Virus record (IMG/VR): IMGVR_UViG_3300048912_000286
Coordinates: 1-45,083 of that record
Length of the DNA: 45,083 nucleotides
DNA from: a virus
Strand: one strand, 5' to 3'
Shown: in pieces, positions 2,614-40,848 of the stretch
How the letters are laid out: each line of letters opens with the position of its first letter
Position numbering within the stretch: position 1 is the first letter of the stretch
Notes under the pieces: generated by a model
The model's database searches: none
Seen by the model: the letters and a program-made list of their open reading frames with translations, nothing else
Told to the model about the DNA's origin: nothing
Program-made: the position numbers and the translations under genes

Positions 2614-3687
2614 ATGGAAACGGTAACCGAGAAGCCCTTCGAGGGCATCCACAAGCAGGTCGGCGGCAGCGTCGGCGCATCCGGTGAGTCCAGCGCCGAC
2701 TCCTCGTGCGGTGTGACCTTCGACGGCTTCGACACGCACGCCGAGGTGTTGGCCGTGCTGGACAAGCACATCGCCGACGCGAACGCCGGGCCGGACCCGT
2801 GGGCGGTGCTCGCCGCACGGATCGCCGACCAGCCACTGCCCGACTACCGCGGCGAGCTGTCCCGCATCGCCGCCGACGTGGACGCCCTCACTGGATCGGG
2901 CCTCGGCAGGCCGGGCTACTTCAGCCTCAAGACCGAACTCGTCATCGATATCCAGCCGGGCAACGGCCGGGACGACGAGGTCACCGCCCGCAGTGTCGAC
3001 GCGGTCGCACAGATGCTCCTCGGCCGCGACGGTGAGCCCAACCAGATGGTCGGCGGCAGCTGGCACTACAGCGCGTACGGCACCCGCGGGCCGATCCAGG
3101 TCAGGATCTACAACACGGTCTCCACCGAGTGGGCCGAGCGCCAGAAGGCCGCTGACGAGGTGGCCAAGCTGCGCGCCGAGCTGGCTACCGCCGAGGCCGA
3201 CGCGAAGCGGCTGCGCGAGCGTCTGGCCGAGCACGAGCAGCCGCCATGCGTTGCGTCGATGCACATCCCGGACCAGGGCGCGACGTGCTCGGTGTGTGGC
3301 GCGGCAGACGTGACGGCTGCTGACGCCGAGCCGCTGGTCTCCGAGGCGACGATCGAGGCGGTCGGCCGGTTCCAGGATCAGCAGGAGTTCGACCGGCTCC
3401 GCCGTGAGGCGCGCACCGAGGACGAGGTTGCCCGGCTGGCTGAGCTCGGCGAGAAGCTCGGCCTGGACTACCGCGTGTACGACCGGGCCACCGCGGTGGC
3501 CGCCGCGAAGCCGGACACGCTCGGCGTGCCGATGGGCCACCACGGCGGCGAGACGTGCCAGTACGTCGAGGACGGCCTGGGCGCTCCCCGGTGCGGCGCC
3601 GCGATCCGCCCGGCGTTCGACCCCCGGAAGGGCTGGGTGCATGCCGACGTCGGCCACGACCACATGGCCGTCGGCCCCGCCTCCTGA
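2614..3687 (+). CDS. Hypothetical early protein with central coiled coil and Cys pairs
   Basis: A 357-residue protein with GAGGCGG upstream of ATG 2614. Residues 1-170 are an unrecognised globular region. Residues 175-208 are a predicted coiled coil (EVAKLRAELATAEADAKRLR). A C-x2-C pair (CSVCGAAD, about residue 227) and later Cys/His residues (ETCQYVEDGLGAPRCGAA) suggest zinc-stabilised segments. It is the first gene after the immunity-region terminator and is followed by another hairpin, so it may be its own transcription unit. Function unknown. Confidence 0.7.
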   Translation: METVTEKPFEGIHKQVGGSVGASGESSADSSCGVTFDGFDTHAEVLAVLDKHIADANAGPDPWAVLAARIADQPLPDYRGELSRIAADVDALTGSGLGRPGYFSLKTELVIDIQPGNGRDDEVTARSVDAVAQMLLGRDGEPNQMVGGSWHYSAYGTRGPIQVRIYNTVSTEWAERQKAADEVAKLRAELATAEADAKRLRERLAEHEQPPCVASMHIPDQGATCSVCGAADVTAADAEPLVSEATIEAVGRFQDQQEFDRLRREARTEDEVARLAELGEKLGLDYRVYDRATAVAAAKPDTLGVPMGHHGGETCQYVEDGLGAPRCGAAIRPAFDPRKGWVHADVGHDHMAVGPAS

Positions 3688-3730
3688 CTTCCCCACCGCG
3701 GCGCGAGCTTCCTCCGTGTGAGCGCCGCCC

Positions 3731-3766
3731 CCGGCCGGGCCGTCAACTCGGGTCCGGCCCGGCCGG
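3731..3766 (+). terminator. Terminator-like inverted repeat
   Basis: CCGGCCGGGCC (3731-3741) and GGCCCGGCCGG (3756-3766) are perfect 11-bp arms around a 14-base loop, in the 122-bp gap between the genes ending at 3687 and starting at 3810. No T-run follows. Confidence 0.5.
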
Positions 3767-3809
3767 GACCCCCAGCACGCATTCGCTTCGAGCCTTTGAG
3801 GACATAGAG

Positions 3810-4166
3810 ATGACCGACCTGCTGGACCCGCCCACCGAGGTCCTGGACCACGTCGACGCGACCGTGGACCTGACCGCCTACCGCGAGCAGCTCGCCGCCC
3901 AGCCCCGGCAGCGGCCCGCCACCTACATCGTCGCCTCGCACGCCGCCCGGCCCGACCGCTACACGGGACGCCGCCGCCGCCCGAAGCGCATCCCGCAGCT
4001 CGGCCCGTGGACGGCGATCGTCCTGCTCGGCTGCTTCCTCCTGGCGTTCAGCATCGCCGGGTTCGTGATGATGCAGCACGCCGCCGACGCGGTCTACTCG
4101 CCGGCTCCCGCGTTCACGACGGTGCCCGCGCCGGCCCCGGGGCCGCAGCCGACGGTGGTGCGCTGA
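3810..4166 (+). CDS. Hypothetical single-pass membrane protein
   Basis: A 118-residue protein from ATG 3810 (TTTGAGGA upstream). Residues 1-60 are hydrophilic with a basic patch (YTGRRRRPKRIPQ). One strong membrane segment follows at about residues 68-90 (WTAIVLLGCFLLAFSIAGFV). The Pro/Ala-rich tail would be extracytoplasmic if the basic stretch stays inside. Its stop overlaps the next start (TGATG). It is expressed early, so superinfection exclusion or membrane anchoring are possible roles, but nothing in the sequence decides this. Confidence 0.65.
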   Translation: MTDLLDPPTEVLDHVDATVDLTAYREQLAAQPRQRPATYIVASHAARPDRYTGRRRRPKRIPQLGPWTAIVLLGCFLLAFSIAGFVMMQHAADAVYSPAPAFTTVPAPAPGPQPTVVR

Positions 4167-4954
4167 TGACTTCGATCGAGGTGACCACGCAGGCTGAGTT
4201 GAACGCGGCGTTGAAGCGCGACGACCTGGGCGACATTTTCATCGTCTCGCCGAAGGGTGTGTGGCTGGAGATTAGTTCGTCCGGCTCGGCCACGGTGACG
4301 GCGTACGACTCGGCCACGGTGACGGCGTACGACTCGGCCACGGTGAGGGCGTACGGCTCGGCCACGGTGAGGGCGTACGGCTCGGCCACGGTGACGGCGT
4401 ACGACTCGGCCACGGTGAGGGCGTACGGCTCGGCCACGGTGAGGGCGTACGACTCGGCCACGGTGAGGGCGTACGGCTCGGCCACGGTGACGGCCGGCAG
4501 TCACGTCGCCGTGCACCTGCACAACAAGCGCGTCAAGGTGACCGGCGGAGTCGTCATCGACGTGACCGACCTGGACCTGGACGACCCGGCCACGTGGTGC
4601 GCGTACGGCGCGGTCGAGGTGGCCGACGGCAAGGCGATCCTGTTCAAGGCCACCGACAAGGAGCTGACCGCCGGGCGCGATTACGACATGCCGACGGTCT
4701 ACACGCCCGGCACGACGGTGACGGCGGAGGACTGGAGCGACGAGGCCGAGTGCGGCCACGGCCTGCACCTGAGCCAGTCGCCCGCGCATGCCGAGGAGTA
4801 CCGGCCGACCTACGGCGGCAACCGGTTCCTGAAGGTCGAGGTGGATCTGGCGTCGGTGGTGGTGCTGGGCAACGACAAGGTGAAGGTGCCCTCGTGCCGG
4901 GTACTGGCCGAGGTCGATGTTCACGGCCGCGACGTACCGCAGGCGGTGAAGTGA
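4166..4954 (+). CDS. Octapeptide-repeat protein with DUF7666-like C-terminal domain
   Basis: A 262-residue protein. Residues 40-111 are nine consecutive 8-residue units of the form (G/D)-SATV-(T/R)-AY, which should stack as a solenoid with one turn per unit or pair. Residues 112-262 resemble the phage DUF7666-type domain (AECGHGLHLSQSPAHAEEY, then a beta-rich end with VPSCRVLAEVDVHG). Similar octad repeats occur in other bacterial and phage proteins, but the function is unknown. The repeats vary only at two positions (T/R and D/G), each a one-base change, which suggests recent expansion or gene conversion. It is translationally coupled to both neighbours. Confidence 0.75.
   Translation: MTSIEVTTQAELNAALKRDDLGDIFIVSPKGVWLEISSSGSATVTAYDSATVTAYDSATVRAYGSATVRAYGSATVTAYDSATVRAYGSATVRAYDSATVRAYGSATVTAGSHVAVHLHNKRVKVTGGVVIDVTDLDLDDPATWCAYGAVEVADGKAILFKATDKELTAGRDYDMPTVYTPGTTVTAEDWSDEAECGHGLHLSQSPAHAEEYRPTYGGNRFLKVEVDLASVVVLGNDKVKVPSCRVLAEVDVHGRDVPQAVK
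4283..4498. repeat. 24-bp tandem repeat, nine units, in frame
   Basis: Nine units of 24 bp begin at 4283. The unit reads approximately GGC/GAC, TCGGCCACGGTGA, C/G, GGCGTAC. Copy-number change would add or remove 8 residues without a frameshift. The last unit diverges at its end. Confidence 0.85.
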
Positions 4955-12481: not shown

Positions 12482-12687
12482 TGGCCAGCATCCGCAAGGC
12501 GCGCCGCCGCGTCGCCCGCTGGGAGCGATACACGGCCCGCTGCATGCGCGTCGCTGGCGAGCAGCACCTCGCCGTGCCCCACGGCGAAGACCGCGCCCGC
12601 GACGCCCTACAGGCCGCCCTGCGCTGCCACAACAGCTGCCGCTGCGACGGCTGCACCCTCTGGCGCCGGACGGCAGGTGCGGTGTGA
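12481..12687 (+). CDS. Hypothetical small basic Cys-containing protein
   Basis: A 68-residue basic protein with ATG 12481 overlapping the upstream stop. The N-terminus is Arg-rich (SIRKARRRVARWERY). The C-terminus has Cys in C-x4-C-x2-C spacing (LRCHNSCRCDGCTLWRR), a possible zinc knuckle. Probably nucleic-acid binding, by composition only. Confidence 0.55.
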   Translation: MASIRKARRRVARWERYTARCMRVAGEQHLAVPHGEDRARDALQAALRCHNSCRCDGCTLWRRTAGAV

Positions 12688-12971
12688 GCGGCGGCGACAA
12701 CGCGCTCGGGCGCATCAGCCCGCACCCACCGTCCACGGCGGAGAGTCGCGCCGCCGCACGCCGGTACCTGGAGCGGTCGGGGAACGCCGACGTGCTGGCG
12801 GTGCTCGGACTCGACGACACGGAGCCGGCCGCGCCGGGCCGCCAGCTGTGCCCGCGCTGCGGCGGGCAGCTGTCCGACCCGTCGGTGAACGGCGGGTTCG
12901 AGGCTTGCCGCCGCCGCAGGTGCGCCGAGTTGCGCACCACACCCGCGTCGGATGCGAGGTCCAGGCGGTGA
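12684..12971 (+). CDS. Small zinc-ribbon-like protein before the methyltransferase
   Basis: A 95-residue protein from GTG 12684, coupled by 4-base overlaps to both neighbours. Residues 55-82 form a probable zinc ribbon (CPRCGGQLSD, then FEACRRRRCAELR). The N-terminal half contains a short helical region (RAAARRYLERSGNADVLAVL). It may act with the downstream methyltransferase, which is only suggested by coupling. Confidence 0.6.
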   Translation: MSGGDNALGRISPHPPSTAESRAAARRYLERSGNADVLAVLGLDDTEPAAPGRQLCPRCGGQLSDPSVNGGFEACRRRRCAELRTTPASDARSRR

Positions 12972-14248
12972 GCGCAACCGTCCTGCGCGCCGACGCGCGC
13001 TGCCTGCCGCTGGCCGACGCCTCTGTCGACCTGATCGTCACCTCACCGCCCTACTGGGCGCTGCGCTCGTACACCGACGGCGGTGAGCACTACGACGGGC
13101 AGATCGGCGCCGAGCCCACCCCGGCCGCGTTCATCGACAACCTGATCGCCTGCACCCGCGAGTGGATGCGGGTGCTGAAGCCGTCCGGCTCGCTGTGGGT
13201 CAACCTCGGCGACAAGTACTCGACGTACGAGAGTCCGAATCGAACCCGATTCGGAGGTGAGATCGGCGAGCGGCAGGATGCGGCATCCCAGCGCGGCACC
13301 CGGTACACGCGATCGGCACCAGCGGCCTACGGCGTTCCCTGCAAGTCACTGTTCGGCCTGCCGTGGCGGTATGCCATCCGCTGCATCGACGACCTCGGCC
13401 TGATCCTGCGCGCCGAGGTGATCTGGTCGAAGCCGAACGGCCTGCCGGAGTCGGTGACCGACCGGGTCCGCCGCTCGCACGAGACGTGGTTTCACCTGAC
13501 CAAGGAGCCGCGCTACTTCGCCGCCGTGGACACCATCCGCGAGCCCACGTCGGCGATTGACCGCTGGCCCACTCGGGTCAGCGGAGGGGAATCTGCCCGC
13601 CGGGTCTCGGATGAGAACTACCGGCATGGGGCTCCCCGCGTGCCCGCGCTCCAGAACCACGCGCTCGGCAAGCTGCCTGGCTCGGTCTGGACCGTCGCCA
13701 CCCAGCCGCTCACCGTCCCGGCCGAGCTCGGCGTCGACCACTTCGCGGCGTTCCCGATGGAGTGGCCACGCCGCATCATCCAGGGCTGGTCGCCAGCCGG
13801 CATCTGTACGGCGTGCGGCGAAGGTCGGCGGCCAGACCTCGATGTCTCGAGACCTCGAGGTCAGACCCCGCGCCAAGCCCAACTCGCCGCGGCCCAGTCG
13901 ACCAGGGCGAGCCGAACCGACATCTCCGGTGGCACGGCGTCGACAACGCTCGGCCTCGCATCGGCACATGTCGAGCGGCGCATCGTCGGCGAGGCGTGCG
14001 CCTGCCCTGAGCCAACCGCACCCACCCGGCCCGCGGTCGTGCTGGACCCGTTCGGCGGCACCGGCACCACCGCGCTCGTCGCCCACGCCCTCGGCCGTCA
14101 CGGCGTCTCCGTCGACATGTCCGCCGACTACTGCCGCCTCGCCCGCTGGCGCAACACCGACCCGGGCCAGCTCGCCGCGGCGCTCGAGGTGCCGAAGCCG
14201 CCGGCGGAACGCGATGGGCAGCTGGACCTGTTCGGGGCCGCCTCGTGA
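12968..14248 (+). CDS. DNA methyltransferase (beta-class N4-cytosine/N6-adenine type)
   Basis: A 426-residue SAM-dependent DNA methyltransferase. Catalytic motif IV TSPPYW is at residues 25-30. The SAM-binding motif I DPFGGTGTT is near residue 360, after the catalytic motif, as in beta-class enzymes. S-P-P-Y is typical of N4-cytosine enzymes but also occurs in N6-adenine ones, so the base is undecided. Between the halves are WSKPNGLPESVTDR and a Cys-rich insertion (CTACGEG near 280, CAC near 340) likely to bind zinc. No restriction gene is next to it, so it is probably an orphan enzyme protecting phage DNA or altering gene expression. GTG start overlaps the zinc-ribbon gene. Confidence 0.85.
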   Translation: MSATVLRADARCLPLADASVDLIVTSPPYWALRSYTDGGEHYDGQIGAEPTPAAFIDNLIACTREWMRVLKPSGSLWVNLGDKYSTYESPNRTRFGGEIGERQDAASQRGTRYTRSAPAAYGVPCKSLFGLPWRYAIRCIDDLGLILRAEVIWSKPNGLPESVTDRVRRSHETWFHLTKEPRYFAAVDTIREPTSAIDRWPTRVSGGESARRVSDENYRHGAPRVPALQNHALGKLPGSVWTVATQPLTVPAELGVDHFAAFPMEWPRRIIQGWSPAGICTACGEGRRPDLDVSRPRGQTPRQAQLAAAQSTRASRTDISGGTASTTLGLASAHVERRIVGEACACPEPTAPTRPAVVLDPFGGTGTTALVAHALGRHGVSVDMSADYCRLARWRNTDPGQLAAALEVPKPPAERDGQLDLFGAAS

Positions 14249-19630: not shown

Positions 19631-19966
19631 ATGGCCGCGGTCGCCCGATGGGCCGGACGCAAGGGCCGGCCATGGCGCACGCTCTGCGCCAAGGTCTACG
19701 CCGACACCGACGAGACCCGCTGCGTCAGGTGCAGGCAGCCCGTCGACAAGACCCTCACGGTCAAGGACGCACCACCAGAGCTGAGACCCAAGGCCAGGTC
19801 AGTCGACCACATCATCGCCATCGAGCAAGGCGGCGCACCCCTCGACAGGGACAACGTCGGCATCGCCCACTACGGATGCAACAGCAGGCACGGGGCGCAC
19901 GTGCGATGGGCCAAGCACAAGCCAGGGCACGTGCCGCCACCTCAGCGCATGACCTGCGAGTGGTGA
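19631..19966 (+). CDS. HNH endonuclease
   Basis: A 111-residue HNH nuclease. Cys pair CVRCRQPV, catalytic-type motif RSVDHIIAIEQGG, then LDRDNVGIAHYGCNSRHG complete the DH...N...H order with the second structural Cys. HNH proteins next to terminase genes are a common feature of HK97-like phages, where they help the terminase cut the genome at packaging. ATG 19631 follows 11 bases after the previous stop. Confidence 0.85.
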   Translation: MAAVARWAGRKGRPWRTLCAKVYADTDETRCVRCRQPVDKTLTVKDAPPELRPKARSVDHIIAIEQGGAPLDRDNVGIAHYGCNSRHGAHVRWAKHKPGHVPPPQRMTCEW

Positions 19967-22542: not shown

Positions 22543-22721
22543 CCGTCCTGACTCGCCCGCGGGCGTCCCGTTGGCGGCACTTCCAGTTGCGGGGCCGGGG
22601 GTACGCGTGGCGCGCCGGCGTGCGCACTCATGAATGGACGATCGGCGTCCGCTACGAACTTGCGCCAGACGTCTGGTTGATCACGTTCCTGTGCTTCGCG
22701 CTCGCCATCGGCCGGAGGTGA
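22539..22721 (+). CDS. 60-residue hypothetical protein
   Basis: A short basic protein from GTG 22539 overlapping the previous gene by 4 bases. It is Arg/Trp-rich (RPRASRWRHFQLRGRGYAWR), with a hydrophobic end (PDVWLITFLCFALAIGRR) that could insert in a membrane. It ends 5 bases before the portal start. Confidence 0.5.
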   Translation: MTVLTRPRASRWRHFQLRGRGYAWRAGVRTHEWTIGVRYELAPDVWLITFLCFALAIGRR

Positions 22722-22726
22722 CTTTG

Positions 22727-25501
22727 ATGCGCCCATGGCTCGTTCCGGCGCGCCGGTCCCGCACGACCGAGGCCCGCGTGGTCGAGGCGATCGCCGACCA
22801 GGTGATCCCCACCGGCGGCGGGTTCGGCACGTACGGCGCGTACGGCCGCGACCCGGTCGACGGCGACGTCGGCTACCGGCGGGCCGGGTCCGCGGGTAGC
22901 CGCGAGGTGCCGTACTGGACGCGGGAGAAGGCTCGGGACTACTCCGTGACCGCGTACCGCAGCAACCCGATGGCCACCGCCATCATCGACACGTACACGG
23001 CGTTCTGCGTCGGCGACAGCGGCATCTCCTGGCAGGCGACGAACCCGCAGGTCGCCGAGGTGGTCCGGCAGTTCTGGGACGACCCGGCGAACCGGGTCGG
23101 CGAGATCCAGGAACTCGGCCTGCGCTCGCAGCTGCTGCTCGGCGAGAAGCTCTACGAGCTGCTGGTCGGCGAGCAGGGCGGGATGGTCCGGTTCGCGCCG
23201 GTCGAGCCGGCCACCATCAAGGACATCCGCTGCCGGTTCGGGAACCCGCTCTGGCCGTCGCAGGTTGTGCTGCCACCCGGCCCGGGCGGCGAGGACGACC
23301 GGGTGTGGGACCTGGTGCAGGTCGACGACGAGACCGGGCTGCGCGCCGGGCAGGCGATGTTCTGGGCGCCCTGGCGCACATTGGACACCGATACCCGCGG
23401 GATGCCGTTCCTCACGTCGGTGCTGGACTGGCTCGACTCGTACGACACGGTCCTGTCGAACCTGATCGACCGCACGGCGCTGGCCCGCTACATGGTGTTC
23501 GACGTAACCGTGCAGGGCGGTCAGACGGAGGTTGACGCGTTCGTCGCCTCCCGCGGTGGCCTGCACGTGCCGCCGTCCGGGTCGGTCGAGGTCCACAACG
23601 ACTCGGTGACGTGGGACGCGAAGACCGTCTCAACCGGGGCGATGGAGGACACCGCCGCCAACCGCAGCGTGCTGACCAACATCGCGTCCGGCACCGGGCT
23701 GGCGAAGACGTGGCTGGCCGAACCGGAGGACGCCAACCGGGCCACCTCGCTGACCATGGCCGAGCCGGTACGCCGGCGGGTCGGGTCGGTGCAGAAGGTG
23801 TGGCTGGCCCAGCAGAACGAGCTGGTGCGGTTCGTCGTCGACCGGGCGGTGGCCGCCGGCCGGCTGCCGAAGCTGGTCGACGCCACCGATCCGCGCACCG
23901 GGGAGAAGACGCAGATCCCCGCGTCGCAGGCCGTGATCGTGACCGGGCCGGAGATCGCCGCGTCGGACTCGCAGCTGACCGCACAGGTGCTGCTGAATCT
24001 GTCGACCGGCCTGGAGAAGCTCGTCACGATCGGCGCGCTGTCCAAGGAGGCCGCGGCGACCGCGGCCCGCAAGGCGTGGGAGGACTACGTCGGCGTGCCG
24101 TACACCGCCGAGCTGGACCGGCCCGACGCCAACCCCGACGACGTGGCCACCGCGGTCGCCGAGGCGGAGCGGGTCAAAGAAAGGCACCGCGCCGGCGGCG
24201 GCCCGCGGGACTACGTCCGCGACGAGGACGGCAAGTTCGCGCACACCCCCGGTGTTCACCTCCCGGATCTCGACGTCAGCGGCAAGACGCCCGCACCGGC
24301 CCCGGCGAGTGACCCACTGAAGCTTGCAGGCCGGATCCGCCTCGGATCGGACGAGCGTTTCACCGGCAGCGCGAAGATCTTCGACGGCGTCGGCGACTAC
24401 ACGATGGTGATGGCCGGGATCGACGGTCCCAGTGGACCGTCCCTGCGGCTGGACATGGTCAATCCGTTTGAGACGCGGGGATGGGACGGGGCCGACCCGG
24501 GAACGGTTGAGCTCGACGCCGCTGGCGCGGGCGAGCTTCGCAAGGTCCTCGCCCGCGCGGTCACCGACGGGAAGGCGAGCGTTACCGACTTCCGAAAGCA
24601 GCTGCGCGACGCGCGCGCGGCTGGGATCCCCGAATCGCAGTGGCCGAATGCCGAACTCGGCGGGGGCATCGCCAAGGGCGTGATCAAGGGCAACGGATCC
24701 AGTGATCTGCACTGGACCCTGGGCCGGGAAGAGGGCGAGGACTACTCAGCTGGCGGCCACGACTACGGCCCCGGCGGTGCCTGGTTCCTCACCCTGACAA
24801 CCCCTGATGCCAATGGCAACCCGTACCACCATTTCAACATCGGCAGCACGGCCCAGATTCGGAAGATCGACAAGGCGGTCAACAACTTCGTCACGATCGG
24901 CGCGCTGTCCAAGGAGGCCGCGGCCACCGCGGTCGCCGAGTCGACCCGGGTCCGCGAACGTCACCGGGCGTTCGACCCGACCGAGCCGCGCGACAGCCGT
25001 GGCCGCTGGACCGGTGGACCGGACGGCATCGGCGACACGATTCCGTCGAAGTTCTACAAGGCCGCGGCCCCGGCCGCGAAGCCGGACCTCCGGAAAGACG
25101 TGCCGGCGAAGGTCGCCAAGAAGGCCCCGGAGCCCGCGCCGGTCAAGGCCCCCGTTTCCGCCGGGAAGGATCTCACGCCCGCCGAGACCAAGACCCATGA
25201 CGCCATCCTGAAGACCCTGCAAGACGGGGGTGGCAGTCCCGGCGATTGGGCCAAGATCGTCGACCTTCGCAAGAACATGCCCGGCATGACGCGCCGCGAG
25301 CAGGACCAGGCGATCGTCAGCCTGGCCAGGAAACGAGTCGTCACCCTGACCGGGGATCCGGACCGGCGGACGTTGACTCAGGCGCAGCGCGACGCCGCCG
25401 TCGAGTTCGGCGGCGAGGACGCCCACATCGTGGCATTCATCGATCCGCCGAAGTCGTTCAAGAGCGCTGCGACCGGCGGGAAGTCCGACAAAACCAAGTA
25501 A
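22727..25501 (+). CDS. Portal protein with long duplicated/inserted C-terminal region
   Basis: A 924-residue protein. Residues 1-440 are a phage portal of the HK97/lambda kind (YWTREKARDYSVTAYRSNPM, MFWAPWRTLDTDTRGMPFLT, LAKTWLAEPEDANRATSLTM). It forms the dodecameric DNA gate at the head vertex. The rest is unusual. The segment around VTIGALSKEAAATA occurs at residues 433-445 and again near 722-735, from 36-bp identical DNA (24022-24057 and 24889-24924). Between them is an extra region of about 289 residues. Two linkers like RDxxGRW/KF follow the copies (near 500 and 764). A winged-helix-like end (LRKNMPGMTRREQDQAIVSL, GEDAHIVAFI) closes it. GGAGG precedes ATG 22727. Confidence 0.85.
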   Translation: MRPWLVPARRSRTTEARVVEAIADQVIPTGGGFGTYGAYGRDPVDGDVGYRRAGSAGSREVPYWTREKARDYSVTAYRSNPMATAIIDTYTAFCVGDSGISWQATNPQVAEVVRQFWDDPANRVGEIQELGLRSQLLLGEKLYELLVGEQGGMVRFAPVEPATIKDIRCRFGNPLWPSQVVLPPGPGGEDDRVWDLVQVDDETGLRAGQAMFWAPWRTLDTDTRGMPFLTSVLDWLDSYDTVLSNLIDRTALARYMVFDVTVQGGQTEVDAFVASRGGLHVPPSGSVEVHNDSVTWDAKTVSTGAMEDTAANRSVLTNIASGTGLAKTWLAEPEDANRATSLTMAEPVRRRVGSVQKVWLAQQNELVRFVVDRAVAAGRLPKLVDATDPRTGEKTQIPASQAVIVTGPEIAASDSQLTAQVLLNLSTGLEKLVTIGALSKEAAATAARKAWEDYVGVPYTAELDRPDANPDDVATAVAEAERVKERHRAGGGPRDYVRDEDGKFAHTPGVHLPDLDVSGKTPAPAPASDPLKLAGRIRLGSDERFTGSAKIFDGVGDYTMVMAGIDGPSGPSLRLDMVNPFETRGWDGADPGTVELDAAGAGELRKVLARAVTDGKASVTDFRKQLRDARAAGIPESQWPNAELGGGIAKGVIKGNGSSDLHWTLGREEGEDYSAGGHDYGPGGAWFLTLTTPDANGNPYHHFNIGSTAQIRKIDKAVNNFVTIGALSKEAAATAVAESTRVRERHRAFDPTEPRDSRGRWTGGPDGIGDTIPSKFYKAAAPAAKPDLRKDVPAKVAKKAPEPAPVKAPVSAGKDLTPAETKTHDAILKTLQDGGGSPGDWAKIVDLRKNMPGMTRREQDQAIVSLARKRVVTLTGDPDRRTLTQAQRDAAVEFGGEDAHIVAFIDPPKSFKSAATGGKSDKTK
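24022..24057 (+). repeat. 36-bp direct repeat in portal gene, copy A
   Basis: Identical to 24889-24924, in the same frame and 867 bp (289 codons) apart. It encodes the end of LVTIGALSKEAAA. Together the copies bracket an extra domain in the portal. Confidence 0.9.
24889..24924 (+). repeat. 36-bp direct repeat in portal gene, copy B
   Basis: Identical to 24022-24057. Downstream of this copy the sequence resembles the region 24146-24200 downstream of copy A (ATAVAE-x2-RV-x-ERHRA), so the repeat probably arose by duplication with later internal loss. Recombination between copies would delete 867 bp in frame. Confidence 0.9.
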
Positions 25502-25770: not shown

Positions 25771-28700
25771 ATGGCCTGGCTGGACGACGCGGCCGTGCTC
25801 GTGCGTGAGGCTGCGCCCGAGCACGCCGACGCCATCCTGGGGCAGCTGGCCGAGGCCGTCGGTGACGCCGAGCTGGACGACGACTGCGTCGGCGACGCGG
25901 TCGCCGTCGCCGTCGAGTCGTGGCTCGGCGAGGCCGAGGAGACGGCGGAGTCGTGGGACGAAACAGCGCACCCGCGCGCCGCGGCCGGCTCCGATGCCGG
26001 CGGCCAGTTCGCCGCCGGCGGTGGCGGCGCGTCGTCGGGCAAGCCGGCGCCGACCAAGAAGCGCATCGGCGGGGAGGCCGTCGGGTACGACGGCAAGTCC
26101 GGCCGCGGCACCGGGTACGGCCGAAAGGGCGGCGACCCGCGCGTCCAGCAGCTGCAAAAGGCACTGATCCGGCTCGGGTTGACCGACGCGAACGGCCGCA
26201 AGCTCGTGGTCGACGGGAAGCTCGGTCCTCGGACCGACGCGGCGGTCAAGGCGGCCCAGCGGCTGCTGGGCCTGAAGGCCGACGGGAAGGTGACCCCGGG
26301 CCTGCTGGTGAAGCTGACCGCAATCAAGTCGCTGTCCCACCAGAAGCACGTCGCGCATCAGGCCCATGTCGCGCATCAGGCGCACGTCGCCCACAAGGCC
26401 CACCAGGCTCAGGCGCACAAAGCGCACGTGGCCCACCAGGCGCATCAAGCGCACCAGAGCCATCGGGCACACCAGTCGCACGTCGGTCGCCAGGCCCAGG
26501 GGCACCAGGCGCACCTCGCGCACGGCGCACACCAGGCCCATCAGGCGCACGTCGCGCACCAGGCCCGCAAGCGGTCACGGGAGGCCGACATGACCACCGA
26601 AGCGATCGCCGGGCAGCGCTCTGCCAGCGACACCCGGGCCATCCTGCAAAACGCCGTCGACGCGATGGTCCGCGGGCGGTCCGGCCGGGAATGGGCTTAC
26701 TCGGAGGTCCTGGACTACACCGACGACTCGGTCGTCTACCGGGCCGACAGCAAGACGTGGCAGGCGACCTACACGCTCACCGGCGAGGGCACGACCGGCA
26801 CCGCCGAGCTCGGCGAGCCGGTCGAGGTGGTCGCCCAGACCTGGTACGTGGCCGCGCCCGCCGGCGGCGAGGCCGAGCCGGCCACCGAGAGTGTCGACGG
26901 TGCCGCCGCGGTCGAGGGCATGGAGCGCATCGAGGGCCGCGTCCTCGAGGCGAAGGGCTCGGCCGAGGACGGCGGCCGGGTCTTCCGGGTGCAGATCATC
27001 GCGGCCGGCGACTCGAAGAACGGCCGCCGCTACCCGGCGCAGATCCTGCGCGAGGCCGTGTCGCTGTACGAGGGCGCGAAGGCCTACGACCACCACCGCA
27101 GCATGGAAGAGCTGCGCTCGTCGACGATCACCGGCCTGGTCGGCTACTACCGCAACGTCGAGGCGACCGACGGCGGTCTCGACGGGGATCTGTGCCTGCT
27201 GCCCGGTGCCACGCACACCGCGGAGGCGCTGGACGCGACGATCGCCGCGCAGGCGGCCGGGTTGCAGCCGCTGGTCGGCATCAGCCACGACGCGATGACG
27301 GTGCTCAAGCCGATCGTGTCCGGCGGCCGGCGCATGCAGGAGGCCGTCGCCATCACCAAAGTCAACTCCGCCGACGTGGTCGCCGACCCCGCCGCCGGAG
27401 GTAAGGCCACCCGCGTGCTCGCGGGTGGTATCGAGCCCGAAGAGAGCAAGGAGTCCGACGTGGTCACGACCACAGACGTGCTCGCCGCGCTGAAGACCGC
27501 CACGCCCGAGGATCTCGCCGCGGTCGGTCTCCAGCGCTCGAGCGAGTCCACCACGACCGAGCGGGAGCCGGCCCCGGCCGTCCAGACGCAGGAAGCGGCG
27601 AGCCTGGAGAAGGCGTCGTTCCTCGGCGGCCTGATGATCAAGGAGAAGGTGACCGCGGCGGGGCTGCCCGCCCAGGTCGCCGAGAGCCTCGCCGAGAGCC
27701 TTCCGGACCGCATCACCGAGTCCGACGTGGACGCCCAGGTGGCCAGCCTGAAGACCGCGATGGGCATGGTCGAGCGGTCCGGGCTGGCGCCGACGGCGAC
27801 CGCCCAGGTCACCCAGGAGTCGCTCGACAAGAAGAAGGCCGCGCTGGATGCGTTCTTCTCCGGCGACTTCAACACCGGCTACCGCTCGTTCAAGCAGGCC
27901 TACCTCGACTTCACCGGCTACCGGCCGCAGTCGTGGGACGACGACCTCAACAAGCGGATCATGCGGGAGTCGGTCGGCAACCTCTACGACTCGGGCGACC
28001 GGGCCACGGAGTCGCTGACCTCGAGCTCGTGGAACCTGGTGCTGGGTGACTCGATCACCCGCCGGCTGGTCGCCGCGTACTCGCACCCGTCGTTGCAAAC
28101 GTGGCGGCAGATCGTGTCGTCGACGATCCCGGTCTCCGACTTCCGCACCCAGCGCATCGACCGCGTCGGCGGTTACGGCACCCTGCCTCAGGTCAACCAG
28201 GGCGCCCCGTACCAGCCGATGACCTCGCCCGGCAACGAGGAAGTCACCTACGCGCTGACCAAGCGCGGTGGCACCGAGGACCTGACGCTGGAGATGATCG
28301 CCAACGACGACGTGCGGGCGATCTCCAACATCCCGAAGAAGCTGGGCCTGGCCGCCGCCCGGACCCTGCACAACTTCGTGTGGGACTTCATCCTCACCAA
28401 CCCGACGGTCTACGACGCGGTCGCGCTGTTCCACGCCACCCACAACAACACCACCGCGGTGGCGCTCGGGCAGTCGACGCTGTCGCAGCTGCGGGCCAAG
28501 ATGCGCGACCAGACCTCGTACGGCGACACCGCCGACATCCTGTCGCTGGTGCCGAAGTACCTGATCGTGCCGAACGAGCTGGAGGAGCTGGCCTACCAGA
28601 TCTGCACCAGCGCGGTGGCGATCCCGTCCACCCCGGCCGGTGCGTCGAACACCCCGAACCTGCACCAGGGCACGACGCCCATCGTCCTGGACTACGACAC

Positions 28701-28914
28701 GGACGCCAACGACTGGTTCGTGGTCGCCGACCCGGACATGTGCCCGACCATCGAGGTCGGCTTCTACCAGGGCCGTCAGGAGCCGGAGCTGTTCACCCAG
28801 TCCGACCCGTCGGTCGGCTCGATGTTCAACGCCGACGTCCTCACCTACAAGATCCGCCACATCTACTCCGGCGCGGCCCTCGACTTCCGCGGCTTCCAGC
28901 GCGGCACCCAGTAA
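25771..28914 (+). CDS. Head maturation protease-major capsid fusion with PG-binding domain and His-rich tract
   Basis: A 1047-residue polyprotein. Residues 1-60 are acidic helices. A GSDAGGQFAAGG linker is near 74. Residues 121-182 are a peptidoglycan-binding-1-like domain (DPRVQQLQKALIRLGL, DGKLGPRTDAAVKAAQRLLG). Residues 189-268 are a His-rich tract of HxxH triplet repeats with about 23 His. Residues 274-545 resemble a prohead protease (GDSKNGRRYP near 413, AYDHHRSME near 437, PLVGISHDA near 505). Residues 560-1047 form the capsid subunit (SSSWNLVLGDSITRRLVAAY ... FNADVLTYKIRHIYSGAALD). An internal ATG at 26590 with GGGAGG 5 bases upstream could make the protease-capsid part alone. Protease-capsid fusions are known; the PG-binding and His-rich front is not usual. 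Confidence 0.85.
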   Translation: MAWLDDAAVLVREAAPEHADAILGQLAEAVGDAELDDDCVGDAVAVAVESWLGEAEETAESWDETAHPRAAAGSDAGGQFAAGGGGASSGKPAPTKKRIGGEAVGYDGKSGRGTGYGRKGGDPRVQQLQKALIRLGLTDANGRKLVVDGKLGPRTDAAVKAAQRLLGLKADGKVTPGLLVKLTAIKSLSHQKHVAHQAHVAHQAHVAHKAHQAQAHKAHVAHQAHQAHQSHRAHQSHVGRQAQGHQAHLAHGAHQAHQAHVAHQARKRSREADMTTEAIAGQRSASDTRAILQNAVDAMVRGRSGREWAYSEVLDYTDDSVVYRADSKTWQATYTLTGEGTTGTAELGEPVEVVAQTWYVAAPAGGEAEPATESVDGAAAVEGMERIEGRVLEAKGSAEDGGRVFRVQIIAAGDSKNGRRYPAQILREAVSLYEGAKAYDHHRSMEELRSSTITGLVGYYRNVEATDGGLDGDLCLLPGATHTAEALDATIAAQAAGLQPLVGISHDAMTVLKPIVSGGRRMQEAVAITKVNSADVVADPAAGGKATRVLAGGIEPEESKESDVVTTTDVLAALKTATPEDLAAVGLQRSSESTTTEREPAPAVQTQEAASLEKASFLGGLMIKEKVTAAGLPAQVAESLAESLPDRITESDVDAQVASLKTAMGMVERSGLAPTATAQVTQESLDKKKAALDAFFSGDFNTGYRSFKQAYLDFTGYRPQSWDDDLNKRIMRESVGNLYDSGDRATESLTSSSWNLVLGDSITRRLVAAYSHPSLQTWRQIVSSTIPVSDFRTQRIDRVGGYGTLPQVNQGAPYQPMTSPGNEEVTYALTKRGGTEDLTLEMIANDDVRAISNIPKKLGLAAARTLHNFVWDFILTNPTVYDAVALFHATHNNTTAVALGQSTLSQLRAKMRDQTSYGDTADILSLVPKYLIVPNELEELAYQICTSAVAIPSTPAGASNTPNLHQGTTPIVLDYDTDANDWFVVADPDMCPTIEVGFYQGRQEPELFTQSDPSVGSMFNADVLTYKIRHIYSGAALDFRGFQRGTQ
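26335..26574 (+). repeat. His-rich coding repeat (Cxx-GCN-CAC triplets)
   Basis: About 80 codons built of degenerate 9-bp units encoding x-A-H (VAH, QAH, KAH). The DNA copies have diverged at third positions, so the peptide pattern seems to be maintained. The opposite strand is also open across it. Confidence 0.85.
26579..26592 (+). promoter_or_regulatory. Internal ribosome binding site and in-frame ATG in the capsid polyprotein gene
   Basis: GGGAGG (26579-26584), a 5-base spacer and ATG 26590. It lies exactly at the junction between the His-rich tract and the protease domain, so a nested product lacking residues 1-273 is likely. Confidence 0.55.
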
Positions 28915-40695: not shown

Positions 40696-40768
40696 TTTGG
40701 GGTAGCTCAGTCCGGTAGAGCACCCGGCCCAGGCCGGGCGGTCGCGGGTTCAAATCTCCGCCCTCGGC
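40696..40768 (+). tRNA. Degenerate tRNA-like sequence
   Basis: The D-arm (TAGCTCAG...GGTAGAGC, 40703-40720) and T-arm (GCGGGTTCAAATC, 40744-40756) match tRNA A- and B-box consensus very well. The anticodon arm is CCCGG-CCCAGG-CCGGG: only six loop bases and no U33. The T-stem needs one bulged T, and the acceptor stem pairs weakly (mainly GGGG with CCTC). It may be a decayed tRNA, a tRNA mimic or a processing signal. An anticodon cannot be assigned with confidence. It lies between two holin-type genes. Confidence 0.45.
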
Positions 40769-40848
40769 CCCGGCCCGCTTTGACGTGGTTGCGGCTGACG
40801 CCGTGCCCGGATTCCAACCTCGCCATAACCGGACTTAAGGAGCAAGCC

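Follow-up and report, generated by a model that had tools for sequence, protein, structure and literature searches.

A predicted peptidoglycan-binding module at the front of a probably nested protease–capsid polyprotein in a virus of soil actinobacteria

Introduction

In a virus of soil actinobacteria, the shell protein is the last part of a long polyprotein that carries a predicted cell-wall-binding domain at its front. What does such a domain do in a head gene, and how would the shell subunit be made from it? The locus lies in a window of 45,083 nucleotides (the whole stretch of DNA that was analysed; IMG/VR record IMGVR_UViG_3300048912_000286). An initial annotation, made from the letters alone, proposed nested products and suggested that the front is a scaffold, a few-copy head protein displayed on the capsid, or a metal-responsive assembly factor.

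Nested head genes, protease–capsid fusions and head passengers are each already known. Phage lambda C/Nu3 and Mu I/Z have an in-frame internal start within the head protease gene. In the Pseudomonas phage MD8, gp5 is described as combining protease, scaffold and capsid in one gene (PMC8508860). T4 packs the ADP-ribosyltransferase Alt and basic internal proteins in its head and ejects them (PMC9026906).

Results

Domain organization of the head polyprotein

The gene at 25771–28914 reads without a stop across 1047 aa from an acidic start, as initially annotated. The polyprotein is composed of a front module, a cystatin-like domain, a prohead protease, a delta/scaffold region and the major capsid protein, in this order (Table 1). 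In the PHROGs, a head maturation protease is matched at residues 395–576, and an uncharacterised family spans residues 238–1044.

Table 1. Coordinates of the head polyprotein gene, its parts and the portal gene in the window.
Feature	Position	Strand	Basis
Portal gene, long C-terminal extension	22634..25501	+	PHROG 10963; translation
Head polyprotein gene	25771..28914	+	1047 aa; 69 related loci
Acidic N-terminal helical domain, residues 1–66	25771..25968	+	predicted helices 2–59; conserved in close relatives
HPRAAAGSDAGGQF motif, residues 67–80	25969..26010	+	alignment of 11 modules
PG_binding_1 domain and N-terminal extension, residues 105–186	26083..26328	+	Pfam, fold match, dN/dS
His/Ala/Gln tract, residues 189–268	26335..26574	+	23 His, period 3, acidic residues 0
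GGGAGG Shine–Dalgarno and internal ATG 26590 (residue 274)	26579..26592	+	anti-SD energy -10.3
Cystatin-like domain, residues 277–354	26599..26832	+	AlphaFold and cystatin-fold matches
Prohead serine protease domain, residues 388–560	26932..27450	+	PHROG 15531; conserved H441, S505, D535
AAGGAG Shine–Dalgarno and internal GTG 27460 (residue 564), delta-capsid start	27448..27462	+	homolog comparison
Helical delta/scaffold-like region, residues 564–735	27460..27975	+	predicted helices
HK97-fold major capsid domain, residues 749–1043	28015..28899	+	Phage_capsid_4 E 8e-47

The protease region, annotated as prohead-protease-like, matches its PHROG with E 2.9e-8. The catalytic residues are retained among 58 homologs (H441 in 53, S505 in all 58 and D535 in 57). 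In the same frame, the capsid domain adopts a predicted HK97-type fold (Foldseek E about 3e-7 to phage capsids), in line with the initial assignment. The gene is thus a protease–capsid fusion.

AlphaFold prediction of the front gives N-terminal helices (pLDDT about 82–91 over residues 1–50), a peptidoglycan-binding (PG) fold and, beyond the His tract, the cystatin-like domain (pLDDT 87–96 over residues 291–350; cystatin-fold matches with Z up to 7.5 in VIA-align). Foldseek with the entire front as the query gave no match with E < 0.001; VIA-align then resolved the two folded domains.

Upstream of the polyprotein gene, the portal protein has a C-terminal extension of roughly 450 residues. The extension contains two PRxxxGxF/W-type motifs, PRDYVRDEDGKF and FDPTEPRDSRGRW, followed by a Lys/Ala/Pro-rich linker, as well as a partly duplicated 'VTIGALSKEAAATA' stretch. 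Elsewhere in the window are an N6/N4 DNA methylase gene (12677–14248), an HNH endonuclease gene immediately upstream of the terminase (19631–19966) and a tRNA-like element with an unusual anticodon reading (40696–40771; ARAGORN 'tRNA-???'; Rfam tRNA 29.7 bits).

The PG domain, the HPR motif and the His tract

The PG_binding_1-like domain, initially placed at residues 121–182, is matched by Pfam (PF01471) at residues 123–181 with E 7.7e-12 and 45.7 bits, against a curated cut-off of 23. The predicted fold superimposes on solved PG-binding domains of SltB3 (Z 7.9) and SleB (Z 7.8); these scores, below 8, are modest and agree with the independent Pfam match. The domain therefore belongs to the family by profile score and by fold, and peptidoglycan binding is predicted. 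In the preceding motif, the H, P, R and G are invariant across the 11 aligned modules.

Pfam and PHROG scans of residues 1–273 detected no catalytic wall-degrading domain, and the PHROG 'endolysin' matches are confined to the PG-binding part. A resident lysin was considered as the source of the front and rejected, there being no second PG_binding_1 domain anywhere in the window.

In the His tract, 20 of the 22 spacings between the 23 histidines are exactly 3, within 80 residues, as had been noticed. The codons are mixed (17 CAC and 6 CAT for histidine; GCG, GCC, GCA and GCT all used for alanine) and the longest exact repeat is 17 nt; the tract is therefore not a fresh DNA repeat. AlphaFold predicts a low-confidence helix.

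The front is translated

The front is open and in frame in nine close relatives (L002, L003, L004, L074, L080, L084, L087, L140 and L149), with no stop or frameshift before 26590, and the acidic N-terminus is likewise conserved. Pairwise dN/dS among close relatives is 0.27–0.59 for the PG domain, similar in range to the protease (0.30–0.56) and the capsid (0.31–0.57), indicating that the PG domain is under purifying selection. Together, the open frame and the selection argue that the front is a genuine, translated part of the protein. The dN/dS of the His tract is mostly near or above 1 and the tract is barely alignable among relatives, indicating that it retains composition rather than sequence.

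The view that residues 1–273 are an untranslated in-frame extension and that the gene begins at ATG 26590, which has the stronger ribosome site (-10.3, compared with -5.8 for ATG 25771), is almost certainly wrong, given the selection on the PG domain, the conserved N-terminus, the lack of a comparable ATG in several close relatives and the free-standing occurrence of homologous module genes.

Internal starts and probable nested products

ATG 26590 ranks second among the 47 in-frame start codons by anti-SD energy. The initial annotation was right about the strength of this site; it does not lie directly at the protease, however, as the cystatin-like domain (about 277–354) intervenes. A comparable ATG is present in L008, L009, L077, L078 and L080, and a weaker one in L079, L089 and L095. 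Six close relatives (L004, L074, L084, L087, L140 and L149) have no equivalent.

GTG 27460, missed initially, is far better conserved. The comparison covered 70 homologs, among them the two loci of the window itself and some near-identical sequences; 64 of these have a Shine–Dalgarno-led in-frame start at the protease/delta junction, compared with about 3% of control windows of the same length; counted per codon, the values are 91% and 2.4%. The Shine–Dalgarno sequence persists in homologs that encode other amino acids there, and even where it lies in another codon phase. An internal start conserved beyond chance, as in nested head genes, is thus found at GTG 27460, and in a subgroup only at ATG 26590. 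Therefore, the gene probably makes nested products, as the initial annotation had supposed.

Three ribosome-led starts in the gene are strongly supported by the sequence. ATG 25771 would give the entire 1047-aa protein. ATG 26590 would give a protein without the front; it is apparently the former start of the downstream gene, retained after fusion of two neighbouring genes. The product of GTG 27460 would be a delta-capsid unit of 484 aa, in which an HK97-type shell domain is predicted to follow the helical delta region; this unit is presumably the shell subunit made in abundance.

Seven of eight cultured protease–capsid genes inspected have an unannotated in-frame ATG at residue 204–221, with a ribosome site that ranges from weak to good and is weaker than the one in this gene. 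In these seven (L172–L176, L178 and L179: Fels-1, mEp043, S1, F10, RcKemmy, Gifsy-2 and Pd_22F), the ATG is at the protease/scaffold junction, the counterpart of the junction at GTG 27460.

The module recurs in head gene clusters

A module profile built from eleven copies was searched against viral loci and actinobacterial genomes, and matched 80 viral loci and three actinobacterial genome loci (two Actinomadura and one Nocardioides MAG). The module occurs in three arrangements. In the first, it stands ahead of, or is inserted immediately before, the protease in protease–capsid polyproteins. In the second, it is joined to Peptidase_S78 proteases (L083, L109, L116, L143 and L144); it is also joined to Mu-I-like proteases with DUF6582 in between (L085, L091 and L105). 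In the third, it is encoded by a gene of its own. For every free copy with an examinable downstream gene, the gene directly behind it encodes a protease, such as an S78-type one, or a scaffold. In L013 and L128, the module is an intact separate gene before a protease–capsid gene of the window's type. By these matches, 'HPRxxxGxxGGxF + PG_binding_1 + cationic low-complexity tail' forms a self-contained head module that is mobile and recurrent.

In four scaffold-type heads (L072, L130, L147 and L148), the free module has no recognised protease gene adjacent to it, indicating that the module is not a mere protease appendage. It is missing from about two thirds of the protease–capsid homologs, and is therefore dispensable for assembly as such. 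Some homologs bear other front modules at the same place, namely DUF6582 or Cys-rich pieces. The short Cys-rich piece is zinc-ribbon-like (CGGPGVCGQCNQEAATAAF...CPTCG) and is located near the polyprotein N-terminus in L005, L014, L017, L018, L019, L021, L022, L031 and L073.

The tails of the module are rich in K, R, A and P, and in the free genes acidic residues are scarce or lacking there. Four tails, in L007, L013, L015 and L110, are enriched in His, more mildly than that of the window. The window's His tract is thus an extreme form of a cationic tail that varies between copies and is in most of them rich in Lys, Ala and Pro. In one free module gene (L132:5995-6714), the tail is followed by an apparent second, shorter PG-binding-like repeat.

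In tblastn searches of 50,697 GenBank phage records, the front gave no match at E 1e-5. The consensus PG module matched lysins and other wall enzymes among the matches listed, and the S78-fused form of L111 was matched, among those listed, in its protease part alone. Scanning 395 genomes of the class yielded one full module (G001); the other matches listed were far weaker and mostly generic PG-binding.

HPR motifs next to ADP-ribosyltransferases

Between the portal and the protease–capsid polyprotein of L016, a gene (3429–4721) encodes AWDPAKHPRGPDGRF, a Lys/Ala/Thr-rich tract and an ADP-ribosyltransferase domain (PF03496, E 4.5e-22). A relative of this gene in L181 (4440–6128) has the same order of HPR motif, basic tract and ADP-ribosyltransferase. 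These two proteins are possible head-packaged effectors. Beyond the polyprotein, the PR-x-G-F/W motif is weakly enriched in general, and is therefore not claimed as a proven tag.

Discussion

A proposed prohead passenger

The observations of the initial annotation are confirmed, and its interpretation is partly supported. The HK97-fold subunit has its N-terminal side pointing into the prohead, and the module is encoded among the proteins that fill it. Dozens of uncultured phages have the module immediately before a head-building gene, either joined to it or free; the phage head is therefore its probable location, and it may aid DNA through the host wall. Most likely, the front is a low-copy internal head protein that is taken into the prohead, released by the protease and possibly ejected toward the wall. 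By analogy with T4, which packs Alt and basic internal proteins, and by way of L016 and L181, we read it as a head passenger whose payload would be the wall-binding domain. If ejected, it would belong with T4 Alt and the internal proteins, as suggested by genomic position and by the ADP-ribosyltransferase parallel, the latter from two loci.

We infer the following steps. The front would accompany the scaffold/protease core into the prohead as its low-copy passenger, and the protease would then cut the module loose. The cationic or His-rich tail would hold the module to the packaged DNA or the core. Once ejected, the PG-binding domain would engage the wall of the host cell close to the site of entry. 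A nested head polyprotein, with a front that is a prohead passenger, freed and later engaging the host wall, is the best explanation, and we give it roughly even credence.

Alternatively, the front may be an assembly or targeting factor, with acidic helices, HPR motif and cationic tail that draw the protease or the portal to the core of the prohead, and with a PG_binding_1 fold reused for protein or DNA binding with no wall role. The strict linkage of the module to protease or scaffold genes is consistent with this possibility, as are the scaffold-like look of the acidic helical start and the cationic tail, the different front modules that stand there in some homologs, and the reusability of PG_binding_1 folds as plain protein-binding or structural domains. 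However, the PG domain retains the family signature, its nearest structural matches are true wall-binding domains, and many homologs do without the module, so that no one front module is required. A scaffold role is a live rival; an assembly factor is the main one, possible but short of probable.

Display on the outside of the mature capsid, with the module adhering to cell walls or debris, is very unlikely: PG-binding domains can act as adhesins and phage decoration proteins with adhesive domains exist, but the module is N-terminal to the protease and delta region, on the interior-facing side in HK97-type heads, and also occurs free beside scaffolds. It is highly improbable that the front is an assembly switch that responds to metal through its His tract; this proposal draws on the regular period and mixed synonymous codons of the histidines and on the four mildly His-enriched tails, but metal binding cannot be the shared function of the module because nearly all relatives have Lys/Arg/Ala/Pro tails at the same place.

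Comparison with known systems

As in MD8 gp5, F10, Gifsy-2, Fels-1 and mEp043, the protease, a scaffold-like region and an HK97-fold capsid share one frame here. The MD8-type phages differ in that the protease is of the Clp type, the PG-binding front is absent and the internal start is unannotated; a term search of the MD8 paper (PMC8508860) found no mention of an internal start. The nested product in this gene would be delta plus the major capsid protein, whereas it is the scaffold in lambda C/Nu3 and Mu I/Z. Unlike these genes, ours also has a second start behind a front module.

As passengers of the T4 head, packed alongside protease and scaffold, the internal head proteins and Alt (PMC9026906) carry a short targeting/cleavage signal, and some are basic. 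Alt is an ADP-ribosyltransferase, like the L016 domain; the likeness is one of kind. Unlike in T4, the putative passenger here, in many cases joined to the protease, has a predicted wall-binding domain. MuF polymorphic toxins (PMC5576092) similarly place variable payload domains on a portal-adjacent head protein, but the payload here precedes the protease and capsid, and Pfam and PHROG searches of the polyprotein found no MuF domain. The endolysin PG_binding_1 domains (e.g. of mycobacteriophage lysin A) are of the same Pfam family as the front, which differs in its head-cluster location, its lack of a catalytic domain and an additional LSYDAKSGxGxGYG stretch.

The predicted wall-binding domain ahead of protease and capsid, which had struck the initial annotation as new, is real, and the libraries searched contain no description of it. 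Searches of open-licence literature found no report in which a PG-binding domain is joined to a protease or to a capsid protein. Neither the phage records nor the papers searched yielded the combination, the family of modules or the repeated joining of this family to unrelated proteases.

Implications

The conserved internal start suggests a route by which a protease–capsid fusion may yield an excess of the shell subunit, and the capsid unit's own start is unannotated in the cultured fusion phages inspected. More tentatively, and short of an even chance, phages of actinobacteria may carry an undescribed class of head-packaged, ejected proteins, made up of HPR motif, PG-binding domain and cationic or His-rich tail, that engage the wall and are repeatedly fused to unrelated prohead proteases as a means of delivery and release, with HPRxxxGxxGGxF as a general packaging/cleavage tag shared with ADP-ribosyltransferase effectors. 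If true, actinophage heads would have a passenger system of which tblastn found no instance among the 50,697 GenBank phage records searched. It would also provide a candidate packaging tag to load proteins into phage heads, and would add a wall-binding step to DNA entry across thick actinobacterial envelopes.
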